Shown in pieces: positions 3,257-63,665 of a DNA stretch of 64,000 nucleotides; position 1 is the stretch's first letter; each line of letters opens with the position of its first letter. Where the stretch lies: NCBI GenBank assembly GCA_023053545.1, contig JAKZAN010000006.1, positions 11,849,412 through 11,913,411 on the forward strand, written 5' to 3'. This DNA comes from Lepidurus packardi. Taxonomy: Eukaryota; Arthropoda; Branchiopoda; Notostraca; Triopsidae. The notes beneath the pieces were generated by a model. It saw only the letters and a program-made list of their open reading frames with translations, was not told the DNA's origin and ran no database searches. The position numbers were made by a program, and so were the translations under genes.

Positions 3257-6200
3257 ATGAGTCGTTTTTTTGCTACCGCCTCGGATACGGAAAGTGAAAG
3301 TGAGTCGAGTGTAGAGGAAGCACCGATTCGTCCCCAAGCCATACCAACGTATGCCGTAAGTTCTTATCGTTTGGTAATCTTAACTTAGGAGTTTAGTCAT
3401 GTATTTTTCTACAGTTTAGCGATGAAGAAGAAGAGCTGAAGCGCGTTGTGCGCTCAGCGAAGGAAAAGCGATACTCTGAGATGCAGGAGTTAATTAAGCA
3501 GATTAGGAATTATAAGAAGATCAAAGATCTGAGCAATATGCTTAGCTGTAAGTTATCAGTTACTGTTCAGTATCCCATTCAAACACTAACAATTCTTGTG
3601 GTTGACAGGCTTCGAGGATTTGACGAAAGCTTACAACAAAGCTTTGACAATTATCCAGAAAGAAGAGGGCGGAGCTACTCCTCGCTTCTTTTTGCGTTGT
3701 TTGGTAGAGATGGAAACCTTCTTAAACGATCTATGGGAGGACCGTGAGGGTCGCAAAAACCTATCCAAAAACAACTCGAAATCCTTGTCAACTTTGCGTC
3801 AAAAGCTTCGTAAGTTCATGAAGGACTTTGAGACCGAAGTAGGCAAATTTAAGGAAACTATGGAGGTGGAAGACGAGCCCGACGAGGAAGCTAAAGGTAC
3901 GTACACACTTTGGTACATCTTCAGACAGTTCATTTAACAAGTGCCGTTTTAGGTCAATCTGAGTCAGAATCTGAGGATGAAGCGGGACCTCAAGCTTTTC
4001 GCAAAGCCGATTCGGAGCCTCGTCCTGCTAAAGTCAAAGCGGCCAAACCAGCAGCTATGGATTCAGATGACTCCGACGATTCTTACTGGGGTGCTGATAC
4101 GGAGGATGAGACTTCGTCTTCAGAAGAGGAAACCGAATATACTTCGTTGCGCGAGAAATTCTTGAAGAAGTGCGTTGTTATCCTTTTCTGTTAATTTACT
4201 AATGGAAAATCAATTTCGTATAGATCCACACTCGAAGAAGATGCGCAGAAAAAGAAAGACAAGAAAGAACGTAAAGAAAAAGAGAAGGAAAAGCGTCGAT
4301 TGCGCCGTGAAGAAGAAGAAGAGGACGAAATGGAAGCTCAGGCGGGCGGTGAATGGGAAACGGTGCGAGGAGGCGTGCCCATGCCTGCAGTACGTTCTTT
4401 TCTGACTGAAATTTCTTAAGTTTCAGTTTTATGCTTTGTTTTTATTTACAGAGACCCAAAATGTTCGCTAAGGATGCTGAAATCACTGTGGGCGTGGTGG
4501 TGAAGAAGTTAAACGAAGTATTGTCAGCTCGCGGCAAAAAGGGAACGGATCGACGTGAGCAGGTGGAAATGATTCATGAGCTATTGACTGCGGCTGAAGA
4601 CAACAATTTGGGGCCTGCTATGAGCCTCAAATTGAACCTCGCCGTGGTTGCCTCCATTTTCGACTACAATCCGAAGATTTCGGATGCCATGAAGCCTGAG
4701 CACTGGGAAAAGTAACCTTCAACCTTTTCTAATTGATGTTGAAGGTTTGATTTAGGTTTATAAACGCTTTTGTTTAGGTTGCTGAAGTGTATTGAAGAAG
4801 TTTTGGACGTTTTAGTCTCGAGAAATGATTTGGAACTTGGTGAACATATTACTGAAGAGACAGAGCGCTTAGATCCGGCTGAGGTTGCCAGTGCTGGACC
4901 CAACGATCAAGTGTACCGCCTCCGTGGCTGTATGTTAACGACGTTGGAGCGCATGGATGAAGAGTTTGTCAAGCTGCTTAAGGAATGCGATGCCCATTCC
5001 AATGAATACGTTGAACGGCTCAAGGATGAAACGACGGTGTGTCGACTGATAGATCGTTTGCAGACTTATCTGGAAAGGCGTACGCTTGCGCAACCCCTGG
5101 AGCTCTCACGCTTGTATCTGCGTAAGATTGAACATCTGTATTACAAATTCGACCCTGATGTGCTTAAACAACGAGCCGTAAGTGAATCCGTAACAAAGAC
5201 ACTCTGAATATTTCTTACCCTTCCCAATCACATTTGACAAATCACCTTTTTCATGCAGAAGGAGGTTGGTCCCGAGGTGGTAACCAGTTTACAAATCATG
5301 GATAAACTGTGCAAGTACATCTACAACCAAGAAGGAGCCGAGCGTCTCCGTCAGCGCGCCTTTTTGTGCCACATTTATCACCTGGCCTTGCACGACGATT
5401 GGTACGGCGCCCGCGACCTCATGCTCATGTCCCACTTGCAAGAAAGCATACATCTATCCGATCCCTCTACGCAAATCCTGTACAACAGGACTATGGTTCA
5501 GCTCGGCTTGTGTGCTTTCCGTCATGGGCACATTAAAGAGGCTCATCACGCTTTGCTCGACATCCAATCTGGCGGTCGTGCCAAAGAACTTCTCGCGCAA
5601 GGCCTACTGCTCCAACGTCAACACGAACGCACATCCGAGCAAGAAAAGATCGAGAAGCAGCGGCAAATCCCGTTCCACATGCACATCAACCTGGAGTTAC
5701 TGGAATGCGTGTACTTAGTCTCCGCGATGCTAATAGAAATCCCGTACATGGCTGCCCATGAATCCGATGCCCGACGTCGCATGATTTCGAAAAGCTTCCA
5801 TCATCAATTGAAAGTATCAGAGCGCCAAGCGGTCGCAGGTCCCCCTGAATCTATGCGCGAACACGTGGTCGCTGCCTCGAAAGCGATGCGGAAAGGACAG
5901 TGGCAACCGGCCGTGCTTTTCCTCATTAACGCTAAAATGAATGCGAAAGTCTGGGACCTATTCTACCAAGCAGAGCATGTACGAATATTTTTAGAATTTT
6001 GAGACGATTATTCATCAGATTATTTTTTGAAGGTCCGAGCCATGTTAAAGCGCAAAGTGCAAGAAGAATCGCTAAGGACCTATTTGTTTACCTATTCGTC
6101 AGTTTACGATTCCTTATCCTTGCCAACATTAGGAGCTATGTTTGAGTTGGATCCTGCTGCCGTCCATTCGATCTTGTCTAGGATGATTTTGAATGAAGAG

Positions 6201-6865: not shown

Positions 6866-7136
6866 TACTTTTTTTCCCGTTTGGAGTTATACCGTGGTTC
6901 TGGTTGACGCGTAATTGACAAAAGGTCAAAACAAAAGTGTACGAGGAAAGACATCCGTACAATCGAAGTGCTAGCTCGTTATAGGCAATGCTAGCTTTAG
7001 CCGGTCATAATGTAACGAACATAGCTGGTTTAATAATGGAATAGCTAAAAGGTACTGTGAGCATTAGCTCAAGCTTTGGGGAACAGCTAACGGGCGAATT
7101 TTCTTGCTGATTAGCTTGATTTTCACATGCACAGTA

Positions 7137-7450
7137 CAGTGGGTGATCGGTTAACGAACAAATCGGATAACGACACTCATTTTTATGTTCGGATAACGAA
7201 CACCGAATAGAACCTACAAGTTCTCCGGTTAATAACCGGGAGATCAAAATGACACGAATGTGTCATATTGTTGCAAAAAATTATCGGGAAAAGCGTGACA
7301 AACCGGCGTCATTCGAGTTTTTTTTTGGGGGGGGGTGTCTCCAGAACGAATTAATCAAATTCCCATTAAAATCGATTATATGTTAACGAACAATTCGGGT
7401 AGCGAACATCTTTTTGGAACGGATTATGTTCGCTAACCGATCACCCACTG
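7137..7450. mobile_element. TA-flanked inverted-repeat miniature transposon (pogo/mariner-like)
   Basis: The left end CAGTGGGTGATCGGTTAAC is mirrored by the right end GTTCGCTAACCGATCACCCACTG, about 22 of 23 matching. Both ends are flanked by TA (7135-7136 and 7451-7452), the target duplication of the Tc1/mariner/pogo superfamily. The 314-bp element has no coding capacity. Its interior (about 7205-7310) holds a fragment resembling the hAT-like elements at 19639 and 51027, including TTCTCCGGTTAATAACCGG and the palindrome ATGACACgaaTGTGTCAT, so one element may sit inside the other. Confidence 0.8.
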
Positions 7451-7769
7451 TATATGTTTATTTGCTATGTGTGAGCTAGTTTATCCCGTACGGTAAACTT
7501 CGGGACTTTCCGCGCATCCACATGTTCCTGAACAACCTTATGTTTGTACCAGTTCGCCTTCATAAAGTTCGCGTTTACAAGTTCGCCTTTCGTTTCCATA
7601 CCCCACCACCCTAGTGGGGGTTGGCTTAAGCCACGCCACAAATCATAAAGAGGAATGGAGTACGGGAAAATGCTTTCGTGCGCGTGAACCAAGTTTCCTA
7701 AGTTAAATTCTTACCTAATCCATTTCAGTTTCCATTCTAGCTATCTAGAAGACAGTCGAACATTTAGCA

Positions 7770-14960: not shown

Positions 14961-15060
14961 NNNNNNNNNNNNNNNNNNNNNNNNNNNNNNNNNNNNNNNN
15001 NNNNNNNNNNNNNNNNNNNNNNNNNNNNNNNNNNNNNNNNNNNNNNNNNNNNNNNNNNNN
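14961..15060. other. Assembly gap (100 N)
   Basis: One hundred N, a conventional size for a gap of unknown length. The flanks carry similar words (attaaaaattgtgcac before, ttaaaaattgcgtggt after), which suggests a local repeat broke the assembly. Confidence 0.99.
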
Positions 15061-19458: not shown

Positions 19459-19638
19459 TGTTCGAACAAAACCGACAATACATTAACTTTTTGCCAAAAA
19501 TATACAAAGAAAAAACAGCCCTTGTTGATGTTCCTTTTGTTCCGTTCAGGTTTTCGGTTGCTTCCAAAAGATTGGGTTAGCAGGAATGACTTACCTTATA
19601 TCATCAATAGATGGCCAGAAGACATTCTCCTACATTGC

Positions 19639-20103
19639 CAACACGTTCTCCGGATTTAGTTACATACGTACGTAAAGTGTCAAACATGACACTTGTGTGT
19701 CGTGTCACTGGCCAACAATGAATTCTTCTTTTTTCAGCTAGTGGAATGAAAGAAAATTCAAATTTTAGCGACTCTCATCAACGAAAATTGATGAGAATCG
19801 TGAACCTAACCTAATCTAACCTAACTTAATAACCTAACCTAAGCTAACCTAACCTAATCAAACCTAAACTAACCTAATCAAACCTAAACTAACCTAACCT
19901 AAACCTAACCTAACCTATCCTAACTTAACCTAACCTAACCTATCCTAACTTAACCTAACCTAAACTAATGTATTTACAATCCAACTACCATTTTTGAATT
20001 CGAGTGACACGCGTTTGTCATTCGTTTTCCGAGAACGTTTTGAAACCATAATACACACTAGTGTCATTTTTATCTCGGATTTCCGAAACTGGAGAACCTG
20101 TTG
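19639..20103. mobile_element. hAT-like miniature transposon carrying a TTAGG-type tract
   Basis: Terminal inverted repeats CAACACGTTCTCCGG (left) and, read inward from the right, CAACAGGTTCTCCAG. The flanks repeat ACATTGC directly (19632-19638 and 20104-20110), with the eighth base T against G, so an original 8-bp target duplication is likely; that length fits hAT or P elements. Inside are TGACAC/GTGTCA palindromes, a hairpin around CTCATCAACGAAAATTGATGAG, and a tract of TAACC/CCTAA units. A second copy lies at 51027-51320. No protein is encoded in the 465 bp. Confidence 0.8.
19801..19968. repeat. Degenerate (CCTAA)n / (TTAGG)n minisatellite
   Basis: About 165 bp of imperfect CCTAA units (AACCTAACCTAA with AAACTAACC and TATCC variants). 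TTAGG is the ancestral arthropod telomere unit. Here the tract lies wholly inside the miniature transposon, next to its internal hairpin, so an internal telomere remnant is less likely than expansion within the element. Confidence 0.85.
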
Positions 20104-20870
20104 ACATTGCAGTCCTGTCTTTCGTGGAAATGCAGTTCGGTATTTTTGTTCACGGTTCGTGGTTTAAAGATTAGACCCCGTTCGTCTATTTATTCGTAAT
20201 CGTGCGGTACGTTGTTTGTTTGTTTTCGAGTGTTGCCAGTGTATTAGCTATGTAAGGTATAGCTTGTAAGGTTTGCAAACCGTTCCGAGCCTGGTTCGAC
20301 GGGAGATTGTGTGTATGGTAGGTTGGTGTAGCTGCGTCTGACGACAGAACTTTTTGCAGCAAATGTGAAATCCATTGATTGTCTAATAAGACAACCATTC
20401 CACCATTGTCGTATAAGTAGGAATTCTTTCAGCGAATGAGAAAGCAAAGTTCTATGCAGCACATATGCTATGCTAGGTCGAAGCATTATCGTTAAAGGTT
20501 TGCCTATATATCAGGGGTTGCATATTCGCTGCAAAATGTTTTTACTGATACATATTTATATTTGTCGGGTGTTCACTGACGTCTTGTAATTGTTTCTAAT
20601 TGTCTTAGTCGAGATATCAGGGGAAGACTTTTGTTAGAAATCTGACCTATTCTGTGAATTGATTTTTTCCCATACCTTACTAATATTGGCAAAAGGGAAT
20701 AAAGTCATTTAAGAGCTAATTTGCGTATGTGACATGTTCCGCTTTTAGGAAGAACGAATAAAAGTTTAATTGGACAACCCGGTAAGCCAGGCCATGTTTA
20801 AAAGTTTCGTCAATAATTTATATAAATGTACAGATTTAGTAATACCATATGCACAAGAATCTCTTGTATC
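20104..20870. other. Intergenic, no gene seen
   Basis: I see no coding exon or RNA gene. Short open stretches on the reverse strand (20186-20486) have no family resemblance. Confidence 0.45.
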
Positions 20871-20922
20871 TATACCGATATGACTCTGTACCATTATTAA
20901 ACGTTAAGAGCGTAGCTAAATA
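20871..20922 (+). repeat. 52-bp direct repeat, left copy
   Basis: Begins TATACCGATATGACTCTG and ends GTAGCTAAATA. It matches 21567-21618 at 49 of 52 positions. It abuts the left end of the pogo-like element with no gap. Confidence 0.9.
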
Positions 20923-21566
20923 TAGTGGTGCCTGGCGTAACGAACGCAATCCGTTCCAGGACGGCGTTCGTTATGCGAATCATTCGTTATGCGGGGCGCC
21001 GTTTCCCATTTGTTACTGTGGGAATCATTTTGATCCGTTTCCGAGGCCGGTCAAAAATGGCGAAAAATCGTAATTTTGCATTATGAGACTGGATGTCACT
21101 TCTTTTCTTAAACCTATGAAACGAGCCCCTACTGGCTTTGATCTCCTTGCGTTTGCTTTTTATGAATCCAAACTAACAGCAACCTCTCCATTTCATCACC
21201 AATCGATTTTCTGTGCATCTGTGAACGAACTCTTGAGATTCCCTTGGCCACCTTAGCTTTCATGATTGATTCATATTGGCTAAAATTGTCCCTATGGTTG
21301 ACTTGATCACTCCGTATTCAGCTGCAAGATCAACAAATCTAGCTCCTTTGCGTCCTTTTTGTCTTTGATTTCTTGCTTCATTTCAACAGTAAGTGCTTTT
21401 CTGCTTCCCACTAACGATCTACTTAGCTGCCATTTTGACAAGACTAAAAAAAGCACTGAACTATCAACAATTTTCAAAGGTAAAGAACACAATAGAGCGC
21501 GCGTGCGGTTCGTAATGCGGAACATTATCCGGCCAGCGCGCGCGTTCCTAATGCGAGGCACCATTG
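20923..21566 (-). mobile_element. Pogo/Tigger-type DNA transposon, internally deleted
   Basis: Inverted ends TAGTGGTGCCTGGCGTAACG (left) and CAATGGTGCCTCGCATTAGG (read inward from the right) in a TA/TA context. The reverse strand at about 21,430-21,250 reads RKALTVEMKQEIKDKKDAK followed, in another frame, by VIKSTIGTIL, the CENP-B-type helix-turn-helix at the N-terminus of pogo/Tigger transposases. Only that DNA-binding part is left and it is frame-broken; the DDE domain is absent. At 644 bp this is a non-autonomous derivative. Confidence 0.8.
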
Positions 21567-21618
21567 TATACCGATATGACTCTGTACCATTACCAAACGT
21601 TAAGAACGTAGCTAAATA
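21567..21618 (+). repeat. 52-bp direct repeat, right copy
   Basis: Right partner of 20871-20922, starting at the TA that closes the pogo-like element. Differences are TT to CC and one G to A. Confidence 0.9.
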
Positions 21619-27815: not shown

Positions 27816-28917
27816 TTAGACAAATTCCCATTCGGCTTCGACTTCTAAAGATCCCGGACTATTTCTTTTGTCTGCTCCGTGCGTGAAAGCTAAGGAAGCT
27901 AATTCCTGGCGGTGCAAAATGCCATCACGTAATCCCCACAAATCATCGCTGATTGAAACTATAAACACACGAGATGTAAGCCCTTCTTATCTCTTAAACA
28001 ACACTTCCACCTCCAAACAGACAGAAAGTGCGTCAAAACAAATTATCACCTGAAATGGTCGACATTTCACCCGGTACTTTCCTCCACTCGTCACCCACAA
28101 AGTTGGTGGATGTAATACCATATCGTCTGTAGATCTCACCGTTCGTTGAGAGCACCCATGCCGCAGAATCACTACAACAAAACTCGTAAGCAGACACCCT
28201 TAGCTTTTTAAGGTCCTTCTACAATTTACCTGAGAGCTAATTGAACTCCTTGGATACTCGGCACAAGGACCCAACTCGTACCAATAGGAAGTTCAGGATA
28301 GATCCCTTCTCTGACGTAGACTCGGCCTGTTTTATCCAACGCCCAGACCATATGAGGGCACGCCCCCACGTAGACTTGACTAAACGATACGGTCTGTTGC
28401 TGCTGATCTTCCACACGAACCCACGCAGGTGCCAAATTAGGCATCGGAGGAGGGTCCAAGGTTCCTAAACGCAGCCAGCAATGGCCTCTATTATCACACG
28501 CCCATGCTACGTCAGACCCTAATGACACGCAAGTCCACTGAATCCCACTTCCTAAGGGTACAAAATCGCTTTTAAGAAATCTGATATTAATAGTTTATAA
28601 GTAGTCAAAAAAGTTCGAAAAATACATCTATTTTTTTCGGTAAACAGACCGAAAAAAGGTCGGAAAAAAATCAAAAAAGTTCAAAAATAGTTGAAAAAAG
28701 ACCGACAAAATATTGAAAAAAATCATAAAATAGTTAAAAACTTTCGAAAAAAAAATACTCAAAAAAGTTCGAAAAATTACCCCAAAACAGTTTAAAAAAA
28801 TAAATAAAAACGGTTAAAAAACAAATAAAAATAGGTGAAAGAATACCGAAAAATGTTGAAAAAAGTTCTAAAGATGTCCGGAAAATATTTTAAAAAAAGC
28901 TGGAGAAATTACTGAAG

Positions 28918-28959
<42 letters not shown>

Positions 28960-31900
28960 CCGAAAAATATCTGAAAAAGTTCTTAAAAGGTTTACCTATT
29001 TGGATATTCGTGAGCTGGACCCAGGTTTCCCCAGCTAGGTCGTCTCGTGAGATTCCAGATCGAATATAAATGGACCCCGAGTGCGTTACAATCCAACACA
29101 CTTCTGGTCCAGTTGCCAAGCATCTTACTTTTTCTTTACACGGCAATTCTATTTCCTAGACGCACAACAAAAATTAAAACTAAATAATCAATTTGATATC
29201 AACATTTCCTTGATTTATCTAACAACAAAATGAGTTTCATCAAGTAGGCCCAGATCAATCCACTGTGAAGGATTCCTAAGTTTTGAGTCAAAGCTTAATG
29301 AACTATAAGCTTACTTTGAGATCATAGCCAGGTACCCATACAAATAACTCGCTTTGGTAGTTTAAGAGCCACAAAACGCCCAACTGCTTGTACATGGCTC
29401 CCGCATGGATGAATCGCCAACCCGTTGAAATTTCCGCCGTGGAAAACGGCCCTGGCAGAGTCGAATACATGGACGCTGGATAAGGGCTCAACGACAAAAC
29501 CGTCGCTAAACTCGTATTCCAAGAGCTGTTGATCGACGGGGAGCTCGGTATCGCAGGCACTGGGAACTGTTCCCCCTCGCTCGCCTTATCCCTCCAATGC
29601 CAGGCTTCCCAGCGAAACCCCGTTAGCACGTCTCGAGATTTCCAAATCACAGTCGAATTCGCTTCGCAGAACCACAAAAGATCCTCTGCGAACAGCAAAA
29701 CGGGTCCGCTTTTGTTCGAAAACGGATTGAGCCGGTTTTTCAAAGTCGAAACCAATTTCGACGTCATGATTTGCAACTTGGCGGTCTGCTGCTCCTCCGG
29801 CCTAATCACCACTTGCCACCAACATCGATCGCGTCCTTCGGGATACTGCTTGGAAATCCCGCTCGTCCAGTAGACGCGATTCTCCGAGTCGACCCCCAAA
29901 GCAACGCCTTTGGATGTCAAGACAATGGAACCAAAATCAGGCGTCACATTCTTGCTAATTTTAACCAAAGTCTCGCTCGGATTTCGATTCAAGTTCGGAG
30001 ATTCAGCCAAAAAGTCGAGTTCGTGCCATGAAAAGCCTCCGGGTGTTGCAGGCGTAATTCCTAAGCGATAAAAGATCTTCCCGCACTGCGCCAATCCCCA
30101 AACGCTCCCTTCCCAGATTGTAATTTGAACTAGTTTCAAGTCATTCGGCAATTCGACCGTTTTTTGGCCGATGGGATGATGCTGACTTAACTGATTCCGA
30201 ACAACAATAACGTCCTCTTTGACCACCCAAACCGAATCGTCGTTCACAGCGACGGATATCACGTTTTTCTCTAGGGCAAGCCACTCATTGACGCCTAATC
30301 CAATATCGTGCGTCGCTTTATAAACGATATTTTTGTGAATAATGACTACTAACTTGCCCGAGGGCGAAATCGCGATAAACTGAGCCACTAAGTCTATTTT
30401 TTTCCATTTAAAATAGCAACTGTGTTGAATTGGCGCTGTTAAGACTTGAGAAGATGTGTCGGTGCAGTACACGAAATGGTTTTTCACTGCGATGGAAGTT
30501 ATGTGATTACAGGGGGGTCCATTCATCTGGATCCAAGAACCGGATGTAGGTTCCTGATCTGCCACAAAATGCTGCTCTTTTAGGTTCATAATCACTTCAT
30601 TTTCCGCCATTGTTTCCTGTTTGTTCAATTTTTCGTTTGAATTTCCCGCGTCGAATTTCTCGTGTGAATTTCCCGCGTCTAAATATTCGCTTGAATGTTC
30701 CGCATCTGAAGTTCCGTTTGACTTTCCTGTATCTAGGTTTTGGCTGTTTAAACCCTCATGGGTGTTGTTGTTTTCCGGTTTCCTACGCAAATAAGGCGTA
30801 TAAAAATCCTCACAATGTGAGATTTGCGTTTCTAGCTGAAACTTCGGTTTCTCGACTTCAGCGACTTCTGGTAAAATTTCTTCGTTCAACAAAACTGGTC
30901 CGGTTTCTTCGGATTCTCTCTCATCCACCTTTTCCGGAAGGGGAGGAGAGTCCGGAACCAAATATTCCGCCAAATTGAGGATCTCGTCCAGCATTTTTTC
31001 CTTGCGATAGAGTTCTTCATGGTCGAAATCTCTGACAATTTTCGGTGCGAACGTATCGGGGATTTCTAATCCTTGCCCCGAGTCTGGCGAGAACTGCGTC
31101 AAGGTTATCTGTCGCGGAATTTCGACGACTTTGGGAGGATTTCGGTCAGACAAGACGCTAATGTCACTTTCTTCTGATGAAATACTGATGTCGTCCGCAA
31201 AGAATCTCTTTTTGGGTTGTTTCTTACGCGGAATCTGGGCAAATAAGGGGGCTTCGTACTGCAAGTTGCTAATCCGGTCGAACGTCTCCCTTCTTTGCAT
31301 CGTTTTCATCAAACTCGTTCGGCGATGGGCTTCGTACAGGGATTGGGACATTGAATCAGGAGAAGTGGACGGAGAAGCGTAATTGGGGGAACACAAACTG
31401 GGTCCGACGGATTGAGTCATAAGGTTAGGCTCTTGATTTCGCATTCTATTGGCTTCGGCTTTAAGTAAAGGAGTCACAACCGAACCGATAGCGTCCAGGA
31501 TGAAAGGACCTTCGTTCAAGCCTGGGATTTTAACTTTACTGTTGACTTCCTTCAGGGCAGACGAACCTGCTTCGGTTATCTTGGAGAGCGTTTGCCAAGC
31601 TTCGTCCCAGACTTTGTTGGGGAGCAAGGGGGGCAAAGGAATTTTCGGCGATTTGGTTTCCATTGTGGAATGTAAGGTCAAGGGAATTAGATGGCATTCG
31701 AAGTCTGGGGTCGTGACAGCAAAGATCTGGCCATTTCCCGTTAAAATAAAGACCGTGTCATCACTCAAGGCGATACGACGAATTCCGGAAGGATCGGCGT
31801 GGAAAACCAGTACAATTTTTAGCTCCCATGGCTGCAGGATAAACAGGGAAGAGGATGAATAGGTATAAAGGTAAGGCTCCAGGAAGTACAACGGACCAAA

Positions 31901-44905: not shown

Positions 44906-45666
44906 ACTACTGGCCTAAAAATTCGTAACGTTCTATGACCAAGGGTTTAATACTTTGCAAAAAGCTGCCTCATCTTCGGATAATGAACAAACGTCAGGGC
45001 GAAGCTATTTCTACGCTATATGGCGAGAAAAACTAGCAAAGTTAGCTATTGCAACGCTCTAGTTCGTTGGGGTTAAAATTATTTGGTGCGAACGTAAAGC
45101 GCTTACTCGATAACTAATTATTAGGTTAGGCTAGGACAGATCTAGGTTAGATTAGGTCAATTTAGGCTTAAGACTAGTTTATTTTACAGGTCAGACGCAT
45201 ACTTCTATTTCAAAAGTATATGTCAGCGTATCAATAGCTAAATATCTCATTCTTTATTTGCCATATGGCGTAGCAATAGCACCGAGTAAAACGTTATTAC
45301 TCAGCAACAAAAAGATCTGGAAAGGGCAAATACGGGTTTGGGTATATAAGAACAGATGTGCGATGTGCAAGAAAAGAGAACAGCGAACGCTGGGATTTAT
45401 CGATAGGAACCGTGATCCAACCAACCTTCGTTTTCACGCAAACAAGCGAGAGACAATACGTGCGTTCCAAACTATAAATAATGCATCAAACGAAATTATT
45501 CGTGTATTTGAAGCCTTGAATTCACGGTACATTAAATACTTCAAGGTAAAGTATAGTAGTACCTTCACTGATAGTGATTCTGATACCCAAACAAACAACG
45601 GCTAACTCTTTGTTTGTTTATGTTTTAGATTGAAAATTCGGAACTGGCCTTAACACTTCCCCAACA
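44906..45666. promoter_or_regulatory. Divergent promoter region, PSME4 / zinc-finger gene
   Basis: 760 bp separate the divergent ATGs. Visible items: scattered TTAGG-like words (45,120-45,175), a TATATAAG box-like word near 45,345, a DRE-like TATCGATA at 45398-45405, and a 115-codon open stretch on the + strand without recognisable family. A shared promoter is an inference from spacing. Confidence 0.4.
45398..45405. promoter_or_regulatory. DRE-like motif TATCGATA
   Basis: Second perfect TATCGATA of the window, again in a presumed promoter (about 260 bp before the zinc-finger ATG and 490 bp before the PSME4 ATG). Confidence 0.4.
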
Positions 45667-50600: not shown

Positions 50601-53600
50601 CTACCAACAAAAGAGCGACAACTCTCCGTCATGGCGCCACGTAGTCACTGAGTGGGTCTTCATCTGGAACAAAAGAAGCAGAGAATACCATTAGGTCATC
50701 TTGTTGAACTGAAACATTCGAAAGTTCCCCCAAACCGTACGGGAAAATGTAGAAAGAATAAAAAATGAATGCATAAGGACATTTCTACCCTTTGCTGATG
50801 TTGTTAGGTGTAAGACTCTGTCTTTTGGTTTTGCACTAGCTGCTAATAAAAGAAAACTTTTGTTTTAGTTTGCTTTCAAAATCTGACAAGCCGTTTTCGA
50901 GAAATATTGTTTCGAAAGTTTGACGCCTTGATTTGGGACATTGTTTTGCTACAGCAAACTGTGGTGACAAGTTGCACTTTCTGAAGCAAAAAAAGCGTAG
51001 AAACTTTGGCAAGGCTTTCGCAAAACCAACAGATTTTCCGGTTAAAAACCCGGTGGTGAAAAATGACTAACTTGTGTCATAGTATTGCTACACGTTCTCC
51101 AGAAAACAATGACACGTGGTTGTCATGTATCCCACTCGTGGTTTTTACCGGAAAACCTTAATTGGTAGTTCCATTGGAAATGAATTAGGTTAGGTTAACG
51201 ATCGGCATCAACTTTCGTTGATAGGAATCGTTGAAAGTTGTACTTGGTCGAAAAATGACACATTAGCTTACACCGGTTTACATGACACCCATTTGTCCGT
51301 CTTTTCCGGAGAACGTGTTGCGCAAAACAATAACAAACATCATTGCCATCTGTAACAGTTTCGCATCAATAAGCTAAGGTACACGGGAGCGTTAACAAGA
51401 GGAAGAAGCGAAATGCCATCTTTTCGAATATCAAGTGAGAAGCGTTTTGTTCGATAACCGAACTTTTACGTCAAGCCGAGCGCTAATCAATAAACACTTT
51501 ACTGTATACGGTAAATCGTTGTTACCCTGGTTGTTTCCTTGATTAAAAACGACCAGTGAAAGGCATATTGTTACACTCTGCAAAACATTAAATAACCTAT
51601 TTTACCACTAAAGAATATCCCCCTAAACACTAGCCCATCGCCCCCCCACCCCAAGAAAAAAGAGGAAGAAAAGTACAGGTCGAAGTAAAGCTAACCACTC
51701 CTTCGGTTACTTTTTCATTCATTGTTTATGCCGTTGCACCATTGCCAAGTCAGGTTGCCGCAATTCCACGAGTCGCCGCGTGACCTATCGGAATATTTCT
51801 TAAGCTATTATTGTGAGAGACGGAATAGTTCTTATCCCAAAGCTAATGTCGCGGTAGCAGCATGTACTGGCATACGATAACGTCTCGTTTCTCTAGTAAT
51901 ACATGGTGTCCGAAAGGTGCATATTCTGTCCCCCAGGCGGGTTTCCTTTCCTTTCCCAGCAATAATTTCTCCCGCTGTCAGCTTCTACTGTAGTTTGCCG
52001 CACTCGAACCGTGACTTTCCCCCATACAACCTTACAATAGCCGTAAATAAGGTCTAGCCTACTTTGTTACATGTTCTCGCCGCCTACTAAAGCTCGCTCA
52101 GAATTTTTTTATGCTTCTTTCCCTTCTATTAATGCGAGTTCCGTGACCATGGCAGCCTCGTTTCCTTTATTACATACAGCATAACTCTTGCAGGTTCCCA
52201 CTGCCCCCAAAAGAATGCCAACGTTGCCCCTTTCTTATTTTCCTTCTTCGCATGCATATCCTCTCGTTTATCTTTTATCCCTCAGGACGTTTCCGACAAT
52301 TCCACCCACCACTGTATACATAATCCCCCTACTAGTTCCCCTTACTCCATCCTTAATCAACTCTCCAACAACGTGAGCAGTGAGCACCTTTCCTTACCAA
52401 ACTTTCGTTTACAGCGTCCAAACTTTTCCAAAGACAGAATGGGCGGGTGACACACACAACTTGCCCAGATACATTCAAAAGGTTAGTCAAGGTAGTTCCC
52501 ATCGAATTGTGCCTACCAAAACTTCTTTCAGCTCACACAGCTAAGGCTCCCGTATACCTTAGCTTATTAACGCGAAACAATCACAGATGGTACTCGTGTT
52601 TGTTATGTTTTTAAAGCTTGTATAAGAAAGTTAAAAAAAGAAACACAGCTAATTACCGGCCAAGTATCTAAGCTTGTTTTGCTTCTAAAAGTACAAAAAA
52701 AAGGAAACGCTGCATTTTACCTGTTGCATCTTCTCGAAATCCAAGCACGGCCGTTGGAGGTGATGAACGCGACCAGTGTGGCGATAGCGCTTCCTAGGCG
52801 ATGCCACGGTCAATTGCGACTGTTGCTCGCTGTTGCACTCTCCTCCTATTCCTCCGGTTACTTGCGTAGCGTGCAACCCGCCCATTAAGGACGTCAAAGT
52901 GCCGTCTTGGGCCAGGTGAAAGAGTTTGGGAGGTGGGGAGACGGAGTGGGCTACGAGGCCCACATCTTGGAGCTTATGTGGTTTATGGGCTCCTTCCGGA
53001 GGTGACGTGCAGAACTCGACCGGGATGGGTAAGGCGCTCGATAGGGCGTGGCTCAACGACGGAGTCTCAGTAGCCGGTACGGCCGTTCCGTTCGCTGGGG
53101 TACTGGCCGTTCCTTTGTACAGCACCGAGACGGCAGAAGGACTGGGTGTGGCATTGGTGCTGATGCTGAGCAGCAGACCTTGCACTTCCTCGTCGGAAGA
53201 CGCGGACGAGGAATCCGTGTGCTTCCGCGGTGCTGTACTTAAACGTTGCTGCAAGGCTGAGGCGGAACGGGTGCGGACTGAGACCACCGAGACGCGACGC
53301 TGTATCACTGACGTGGGGGTTTTCACCTGTTGGGAAACAACAGCTTTCGGTTATATACGGGCCACGAAATTAAAACGGACATTTTTAAAATAGACAGAAA
53401 GTACATGCCTTTCGGGGATTTACTTGAGACCATTTGCGCTTCTCCGGCTGACTAATCACCGTAAGCGTACTTCGCCCCTCCTCCGGCGCTGTGGCTGCGG
53501 CGGAAGATCCTCGCCTACTTGTTCTGATCCTGTCTTCAATCCGTTGCTGATCTTCCGCGAGACTTCCGTCGCTAGTAAGCATCATCCGCGCTGGGGTTAA

Positions 53601-62137: not shown

Positions 62138-63434
62138 CTTGGCCAAGCAAGCCCCGGATTGCACCGGGGATCTGACCTACAGCTTGGGCTTACTTTAACC
62201 CAGCTCTTCAGAATCTTCTCTCACTCTTCTCGCAAGTTTATTTTCGTTTAAAAAAAGCTCAGGAATAGGTGTCTACCTTGGCAGAATAACCGTGTTCTTC
62301 GTTAAGTGACTGGGTACGTAGTTTCTGCGTCAAATACCGGACACTCAACATAGTTCATTGACGGCCAACTCAGGGTCCCTTTTGAAAATCCCAATTTTAG
62401 ACCAAACTCAGGTTTTTAGTCTTCATGAAAACATTGAAGGGAATTAGGCCGCTCACAAGGTATGCAAAGTTCGGAGGAACGGGTTTGGGTTCTTTCTCTC
62501 TTGTGCAAGAGACTCGTTTCGCTCCTTTTGGTCACGCTTGCAACTTTACTCACGTTTTGCACTTCATTCCACTTTAAGAAACTCTAGGAAAAACGCTAAG
62601 ATTGTCCACTTCTATAACACTTAACGTTAATGTAAGGCAGCCTTTAACTGAGTAAGGAATTACCGTTTGGGGCTGACACAAGAACAAAGGAATCTTTGGG
62701 AGGTCTGCACTACAAATTCCAAGCAGAATATTCCACCTGTCACATGTGGCCCTTGTAAGCCGACTGCCGGTGTCTGCGTACAACACACCACTCACTACGC
62801 TACTCAGCTGTTCGCTTGAACTCAGGGCGTCCCAGGGGAGGCCACCTAACTTGCAATCGATACTTATTGATAGTTTACTTATTTCTCTTAATCCTTATCA
62901 TGGTATAATGCATTTAGTTTACTGATGATGGCGCAAATTGAAAGATTCTAGAAGTTTCTTGCAATTGTTTCCACGAAACGAGAAGTCTCAAGACATGGCA
63001 TCCCCTACGCTATAAAGAATTGGACTCGTCCACGTTGCGATGGCTCGTGGCCTCGGCTCCGCCCTTTGCGGCTCGTCAAGGTCTAACGTCCTCCGTGCTG
63101 AGCCTCATGAATGGGAGCTTTTCGTAAACTCCGTTGAGCCCATCGACTAGCCCTCCCCCAATTAATTATCCCACGGACCTCGAATAATGATGCGAGACAA
63201 AATTTTGCTCTATGTAAGAGTTGTCCTTCCTATTGCTGCTTTCGATCGTTTTCTATGGTTTAGAAGGTACGAATCTTCGTAGCTATTGCTACCCCAGATA
63301 GGTCGAACTGTAAAATGTGATAGAAGTTTCCATGTAACCTAAGTTAAAAGTAGCCTAACCTACCTATTATAGAATCCGGAGTGAAACTAGAAGAAAGATA
63401 ATTAGTTAAGTTCAAAGGTCTATCTGGCGCAGCA
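62138..63434. other. Intergenic / promoter, no gene seen
   Basis: No recognised exon. If the candidate exon is real, this holds the promoter of the reverse-strand gene. Confidence 0.4.
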
Positions 63435-63665
63435 ATGACTAAACCAGTGCGTTTCTCATTGTTAGGCCTATTGCTGCATATGGCGGGTAACAAAAGCTTC
63501 GGCTTTATTCAAGTGGAAACATGTAATAACAAATACGTGGGTGGTGATTATAGCGAAAAAGCTTTGGCCTTGGCTAACTACAAAGGTTTTCAAGAGCTCA
63601 ATGTAAACAAAGGTGATTTGGTACCGCTGACGCTCGTCGAAATAAGAGCTTGCTCAGAAGTTTAA
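63435..63665 (+). CDS. Small hypothetical ORF, 76 aa
   Basis: ATG in the context GCAGCAATGACT opens 76 codons. Residues 7-18 are hydrophobic (FSLLGLLLHMAG); the rest is mixed and protein-like, with a YVGGDYSEKALALANYKGF segment. No family recognised. It could equally be a chance ORF or one exon of a gene running out of the window. Confidence 0.2.
   Translation: MTKPVRFSLLGLLLHMAGNKSFGFIQVETCNNKYVGGDYSEKALALANYKGFQELNVNKGDLVPLTLVEIRACSEV

Follow-up and report, generated by a model that had tools for sequence, protein, structure and literature searches.

A degenerate CCTAA (TTAGG) tract in the genome of Lepidurus packardi, at first sight a stray piece of telomere, most likely represents the interior of a small mobile element. 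The tract lies at positions 19803-19968 of the 64,000-nucleotide stretch of contig JAKZAN010000006.1 analysed here (hereafter the window), in which two full copies (a and b) and one truncated copy (c) of the element family were found. Probably, this family of non-autonomous transposons carried a telomere-type seed, and the seed expanded in place in copy a. On this reading, the tract of copy a offers no evidence of a former chromosome end.

Ends and boundaries of the element

Copy a was delimited by a terminal inverted match and a target-site duplication:
19639-20103, plus strand: copy a, a 465-bp non-autonomous inverted-repeat element with a long CCTAA tract
19632-19638, plus strand: target-site duplication ACATTGC, left of copy a
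20104-20110, plus strand: target-site duplication ACATTGC, right of copy a

Its terminal 15 bases were identical at 13 of 15 positions (CAACACGTTCTCCGG against CAACAGGTTCTCCAG, the reverse complement of the right end). The whole window was also scanned blindly for pairs of 15-bp inverted ends with a direct repeat immediately outside them, at most 3 mismatches and a spacing of 100-900 bp. The sole match in the window was copy a (2 mismatches) when the repeat was set to 7 bp, and copy b (3 mismatches) when it was set to 8 bp. The chance level of these scans was taken from windows simulated with a first-order Markov model: for the 7-bp repeat, 60 simulated windows gave one match with 2 mismatches and three with 3, and a second set of 100 windows gave none and ten, respectively; for the 8-bp repeat, 100 simulated windows gave two matches with 3 mismatches. 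Either end pair taken singly therefore exceeds chance moderately and is suggestive, not decisive; the case for a real element is decisive because the two matches are homologous to each other. The inverted ends and flanking ACATTGC that the preliminary description had placed around the CCTAA tract were thus borne out by the end match and the blind scan.

No uninserted site for copy a was found within the window. None of the 18 stop-to-stop open reading frames of at least 150 amino acids in the window overlapped copy a or b, and no transposase or autonomous relative of the two elements was seen in the 64 kb. Over the whole window, a short end motif was weakly enriched (16 occurrences against 9.9 expected; 7/100 shuffles), as was the TGACAC/TGTCA motif (25 against 14.8; 3/100 shuffles); neither was counted as evidence.

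Structure common to copies a and b

The second full copy and the internal features of both copies were as follows:
51027-51320, minus strand (opposite to copy a): copy b, a 294-bp element with a short seed only
51185-51197, plus strand: telomere-like seed TTAGGTTAGGTTA in copy b
19769-19800, plus strand: hairpin adjoining the tract in copy a (DNA fold -8.3 kcal/mol; 0/200 shuffles as stable)
51199-51230, minus strand: homologous hairpin in copy b (-5.0 kcal/mol; 5/200 shuffles as stable)
20005-20042, minus strand: internal inverted copy of the left end in copy a
51087-51129, plus strand: internal inverted end in copy b (43 nt, 81% complementary to 51279-51321)

The first 16 bases are identical in the two copies, and the ends of copy b match at 12 of 15 terminal bases. 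Both copies carry three end-like sequences, namely the left, the right and an internal inverted one. With the tract removed, the left parts of the two copies aligned with a score of 36 (shuffle maximum 25) and the right parts with a score of 41 (shuffle maximum 31), scores that none of 500 shuffles reached in either case. The divergence of copy b from copy a is about 20% in the best-aligned parts. Between them, a match of 57 nt (81%) takes in the hairpin and the first part of the seed; another of 38 nt (82%) takes in the seed and the sequence on its far side. The same internal position thus holds 34 units in copy a and about 2.5 units in copy b (n = 2). The existence of a second copy with a short seed beside the same hairpin had been noticed previously and holds, the seed being longer than the GGTTAGGTT then quoted. 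Not part of that earlier description were the 8-bp duplication and uninserted site of copy b, the third, internal end, the truncated copy c and two further telomere-like tracts in a second inverted-repeat family. An exact search for one 25-base pattern of the hairpin through viral and prokaryote sequence (viral_contigs and genome_contigs) gave no match.

Insertion of copy b into a larger inverted repeat

A larger inverted repeat (50972-52696, about 1.7 kb) hosts copy b in one of its arms, and its other arm provides a comparison with the insertion site:
51019-51026: target-site duplication CGCAAAAC, low side of copy b
51321-51328: target-site duplication CGCAAAAC, high side of copy b
52542-52696, minus strand: opposite arm of the inverted repeat that hosts copy b, with a paralogous site lacking the insertion

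The duplication of copy b is exact and 8 bp long, against 7 bp for copy a. Around the element, positions 51324-51394 pair with 52542-52612 at 82%, and 50972-51006 with 52662-52696 at 83%. The left and right flanks of copy b each match the other arm (0/1000 shuffles each), and one alignment spans the junction in that arm with a single copy of the site (AAAAAC in place of CGCAAAAC). The element itself has no match there, 958 of 1000 shuffles scoring as well. The other arm keeps an uninserted version of the locus, and copy b is therefore a real insertion. The uninserted site is a paralogue of the insertion site, not an allele.

Composition and probable growth of the tract

19803-19968, plus strand: degenerate CCTAA (TTAGG) tract of copy a (Tandem Repeats Finder, TRF: period 5, 33.4 copies, 80% matches)

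Parsed over 19802-19971, the tract consists of 34 units, including 19 perfect AACCT and 15 variant ones. Two blocks of variant units are duplicated, producing exact repeats of 37 nt at a lag of 25 and of 29 nt at a lag of 20. Two runs with at least two shared variant units were reached in 11 of 20000 unit shuffles and both long exact repeats jointly in 9 of 3000, two statistics that were picked after the blocks had been seen. Other statistics were weaker (single run, 845/20000 shuffles; two periods, 1708/20000; longest exact repeat alone, 208/3000). A single telomerase addition leaves perfect units that then decay independently of each other. The duplicated variant blocks speak for growth of the tract in situ, through slippage or unequal exchange, rather than for a fused telomere.

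The element had been proposed to bring a seed able to expand by slippage, which could account for TTAGG tracts scattered in the genome. The block duplications of variant units lend limited support to the growth in place. Only two copies span the seed, neither of them an outgroup, and growth and loss are not polarised between them; a change from a short, b-like to a long, a-like state is accordingly putative.

Setting of the window and a truncated copy

Four of the nine scanned frames had Pfam matches, and the window holds ordinary genes, namely those for eIF3c, an MgtE-type transporter, a tectonin-domain protein and a C2H2 zinc-finger protein. No sign of a chromosome end was seen in the window. 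When compared with the window, the 300-base flanks of copies a and b matched only themselves, the host repeat of copy b and two short stretches (E 0.015 and 0.053). Telomere-adjacent flanks, which had been named beforehand as evidence against the element, found no support in this comparison with the window or in the genes around it.

A third member of the family was found inside another inverted-repeat element:
7214-7319, minus strand: copy c, right half only of the family, with no clear seed, inside the inverted-repeat element 7135-7452

The surrounding element has 26-nt inverted ends (TACAGTGGGTGATCGGTTAACGAACA) that are 96% complementary. It is presumably Tc1/pogo-like with a TA duplication, and its end had no match in viral_contigs. 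No CCTAA repeat is present in copy c at the seed position, where homology to the other copies is weak (20/1000 shuffles reach the score). Copies devoid of the tract had been announced as counter-evidence to a carried seed; the truncated copy c is without the repeat where its homology fades, and is uninformative on the direction of change.

Several other repeats were observed in the window. An inverted-repeat element with arms at 20926-20947 and 21542-21563 occupies 20871-21618, where it is flanked by direct repeats of 52 nt with 94% identity (20871-20922 and 21567-21618), a length far above that of a usual target duplication. An open frame of 337 amino acids at 881-1894 contains 102-nt tandem repeats, and the sequence at 28640-28990 is A-rich with irregular repeats and a run of 35 A. 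Positions 14961-15060 are 100 N, an assembly gap, and the window therefore comes from a scaffold.

A second inverted-repeat family with a telomere-like core

Telomere-like sequence was also found in two further inverted-repeat elements:
45004-45280: second inverted-repeat family, with a degenerate TTAGG tract at about 45121-45180 (about 60 nt)
63280-63441: relative of the preceding element, with a CCTAA-like tract at 63335-63362

Their ends resemble GCTATTGCTACGC, and in the 45004 copy inner arms are nested within outer ones. Arm pairing reaches 82% over 28 nt in 45004-45280 and 82% over 22 nt in 63280-63441. The right arm of the former matches the left arm of the latter (0/1000 shuffles), and the remaining two arms show no match beyond chance (331/1000 shuffles). 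The status of this family as a transposon is weaker because no target duplication was seen by eye.

Kinship of the two families beyond the shared motif was considered and rejected for want of evidence. In 24 comparisons (four element halves by three tract regions on both strands, one of these regions, 4300-5200, lying outside the second family), one reached 3/100 shuffles and the rest exceeded 5/100. A peak of motif density at 4737-4782 proved on inspection not to be a tract.

Origin of the telomere-like tract

Copies a and b are best explained as members of one family of small non-autonomous cut-and-paste DNA transposons, with inverted ends of the CAACACGTTCTCCGG type, target duplications of 7-8 bp and an extra inverted end in the right half. 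They would be moved by a transposase encoded elsewhere. Their common interior comprises the hairpin and, after it, two to three telomere-type units (AACCTAACCTAA), a seed that the element may have carried along as a proto-microsatellite. Replication slippage or unequal exchange would then have extended this seed to 34 units in copy a or in its parent, a growth that probably included the copying of blocks of 20-25 bp.

The ancestral element may instead have had a long telomere-type tract that contracted to 13 bp in copy b, so that tracts and not seeds were spread. Nothing polarises the change between the only two informative copies, and the tract in the 45004 element of the second family is likewise long (about 60 nt) and degenerate. 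If copy b, about 20% diverged, held a remnant, mutations would be expected in it as in the rest of the copy, but all 13 bases are perfect; this argument is weak, and contraction is regarded as unlikely while keeping an appreciable chance. A genuine interstitial telomeric sequence in copy a, made by telomerase or by capture of a DNA end at a break within the element, is considered improbable. Insertion of telomeric repeats at repaired breaks is reported for mammals and other vertebrates in the available text of PMC7215372 and PMC8537989. Against such an origin, the tract lies exactly at the seed position of copy b with both flanks conserved, and its 15 variant units of 34 are block-duplicated. 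An interstitial telomere would be an array adjoining host sequence rather than one within a mobile element; the tract of copy a lies within a bounded element, 164 bp and about 135 bp from its ends. A genuine telomere relic was rejected for copy a, since copy b has conserved the sequence on either side of the tract.

The presence of telomere-like cores in two inverted-repeat families of one window could also be a chance coincidence. Exact telomere-repeat loci of 8 nt show no enrichment (8 found, shuffle mean 8.3; 34/60 shuffles reach 8), and the six loci of 9 nt, which are those of copies a and b, two inside inverted repeats (45121 and 63354) and two short matches (22617 and 23424), include the last two as unremarkable ones: locus 23424 has bracketing arms only at the loosest threshold, 516 nt from each other, and locus 22617 has none. 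Against chance, these six loci compare with a shuffle mean of 1.85 (0/60 shuffles reach 6), and three loci of 10 nt with a mean of 0.47 (1/60 shuffles). In addition, all four tract-like loci (19803, 45121, 51185 and 63335) are bracketed by inverted repeats, pairs of this grade covering 11% of the window with the elements themselves included; this recurrence is a pattern found after the fact in one window. For copies a and b, chance is excluded by their homology and by the uninserted site of copy b, and coincidence across both families is judged quite improbable. A bolder proposal is that small inverted-repeat transposons of this genome recurrently have telomere-type cores because they arise by the joining of a broken, internally deleted transposon with telomerase-made filler, the two unrelated families at 19639/51027 and 45004/63280 being independent captures that would jointly seed most TTAGG-like tracts of the genome; it is a speculation to which very little credence is given. 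Expansion of a carried seed within a mobile element remains the preferred reading.

Relation to known elements and significance

Target duplications of 8 bp are also made by superfamilies other than P. Those of 7-8 bp found here would fit the P superfamily and are not diagnostic, hAT and Mutator being candidates as well. Within the P superfamily, Galileo makes duplications of 7 or 8 bp (PMC4168063, available text), and the foldback-like elements of this group resemble copies a and b, as far as the available parts of the sources describe them, in their 7-bp and sometimes 8-bp duplications and in their long or repeated inverted ends (PMC4168063, PMC3573991). The likeness is drawn from the description of the ends; unlike for Galileo, no transposase was seen for a and b, and neither ACATTGC nor CGCAAAAC matches the Galileo target consensus GTANTAC given there.

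Elements with internal repeats that grow are known. The mini-me elements of Diptera (Wilder and Hollocher 2001) contain, according to the available text of PMC8947103, internal proto-microsatellites expanding to long repeats, and are in this respect mobile elements like a and b. By description they are set apart from these, whose unit is the arthropod-type telomere pentamer and whose carrier has inverted ends and target duplications. Tetris/DAIBAM of Drosophila virilis, assigned to Mutator in the text seen of PMC4079207, is likewise a non-autonomous inverted-repeat element with internal repeats growing into arrays; it has repeats of about 220 bp and duplications of 8-10 bp, against a pentamer and 7-8 bp here. 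In penaeid shrimp, the available portions of PMC7878876 and PMC3124438 describe DNA transposons as carriers for the expansion of simple repeats, with AACCT abundant and named as the telomere motif. That is a genome-wide association, whereas copies a and b represent a single element with a seed beside a hairpin. For short interstitial telomeric sequences in general, transposon remnants and slippage-grown microsatellites have already been proposed as origins (PMC9693754, available text). The array of copy a is similarly of telomere type and within a chromosome; unlike these sequences as described there, it lies within a bounded element common to a second locus.

Among the matches listed, no title or abstract opening described a TTAGG-bearing MITE or similar element, in a literature coverage that excludes most subscription journals. 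The mechanism is not new in kind; what is new, as far as the literature was searched, is this particular element with its seed, and that the motif recurs in a second family.

Internal telomere-type tracts are often taken as scars of chromosome fusions or repaired breaks, and a mobile element carrying the motif is a mundane source of them. Looking for element ends and target duplications around a tract is a simple filter to apply before a fusion is inferred. With the motif present, in one 64-kb window, in two inverted-repeat families that share no further clear likeness, it becomes testable whether transposons are a major source of such tracts in this genome.
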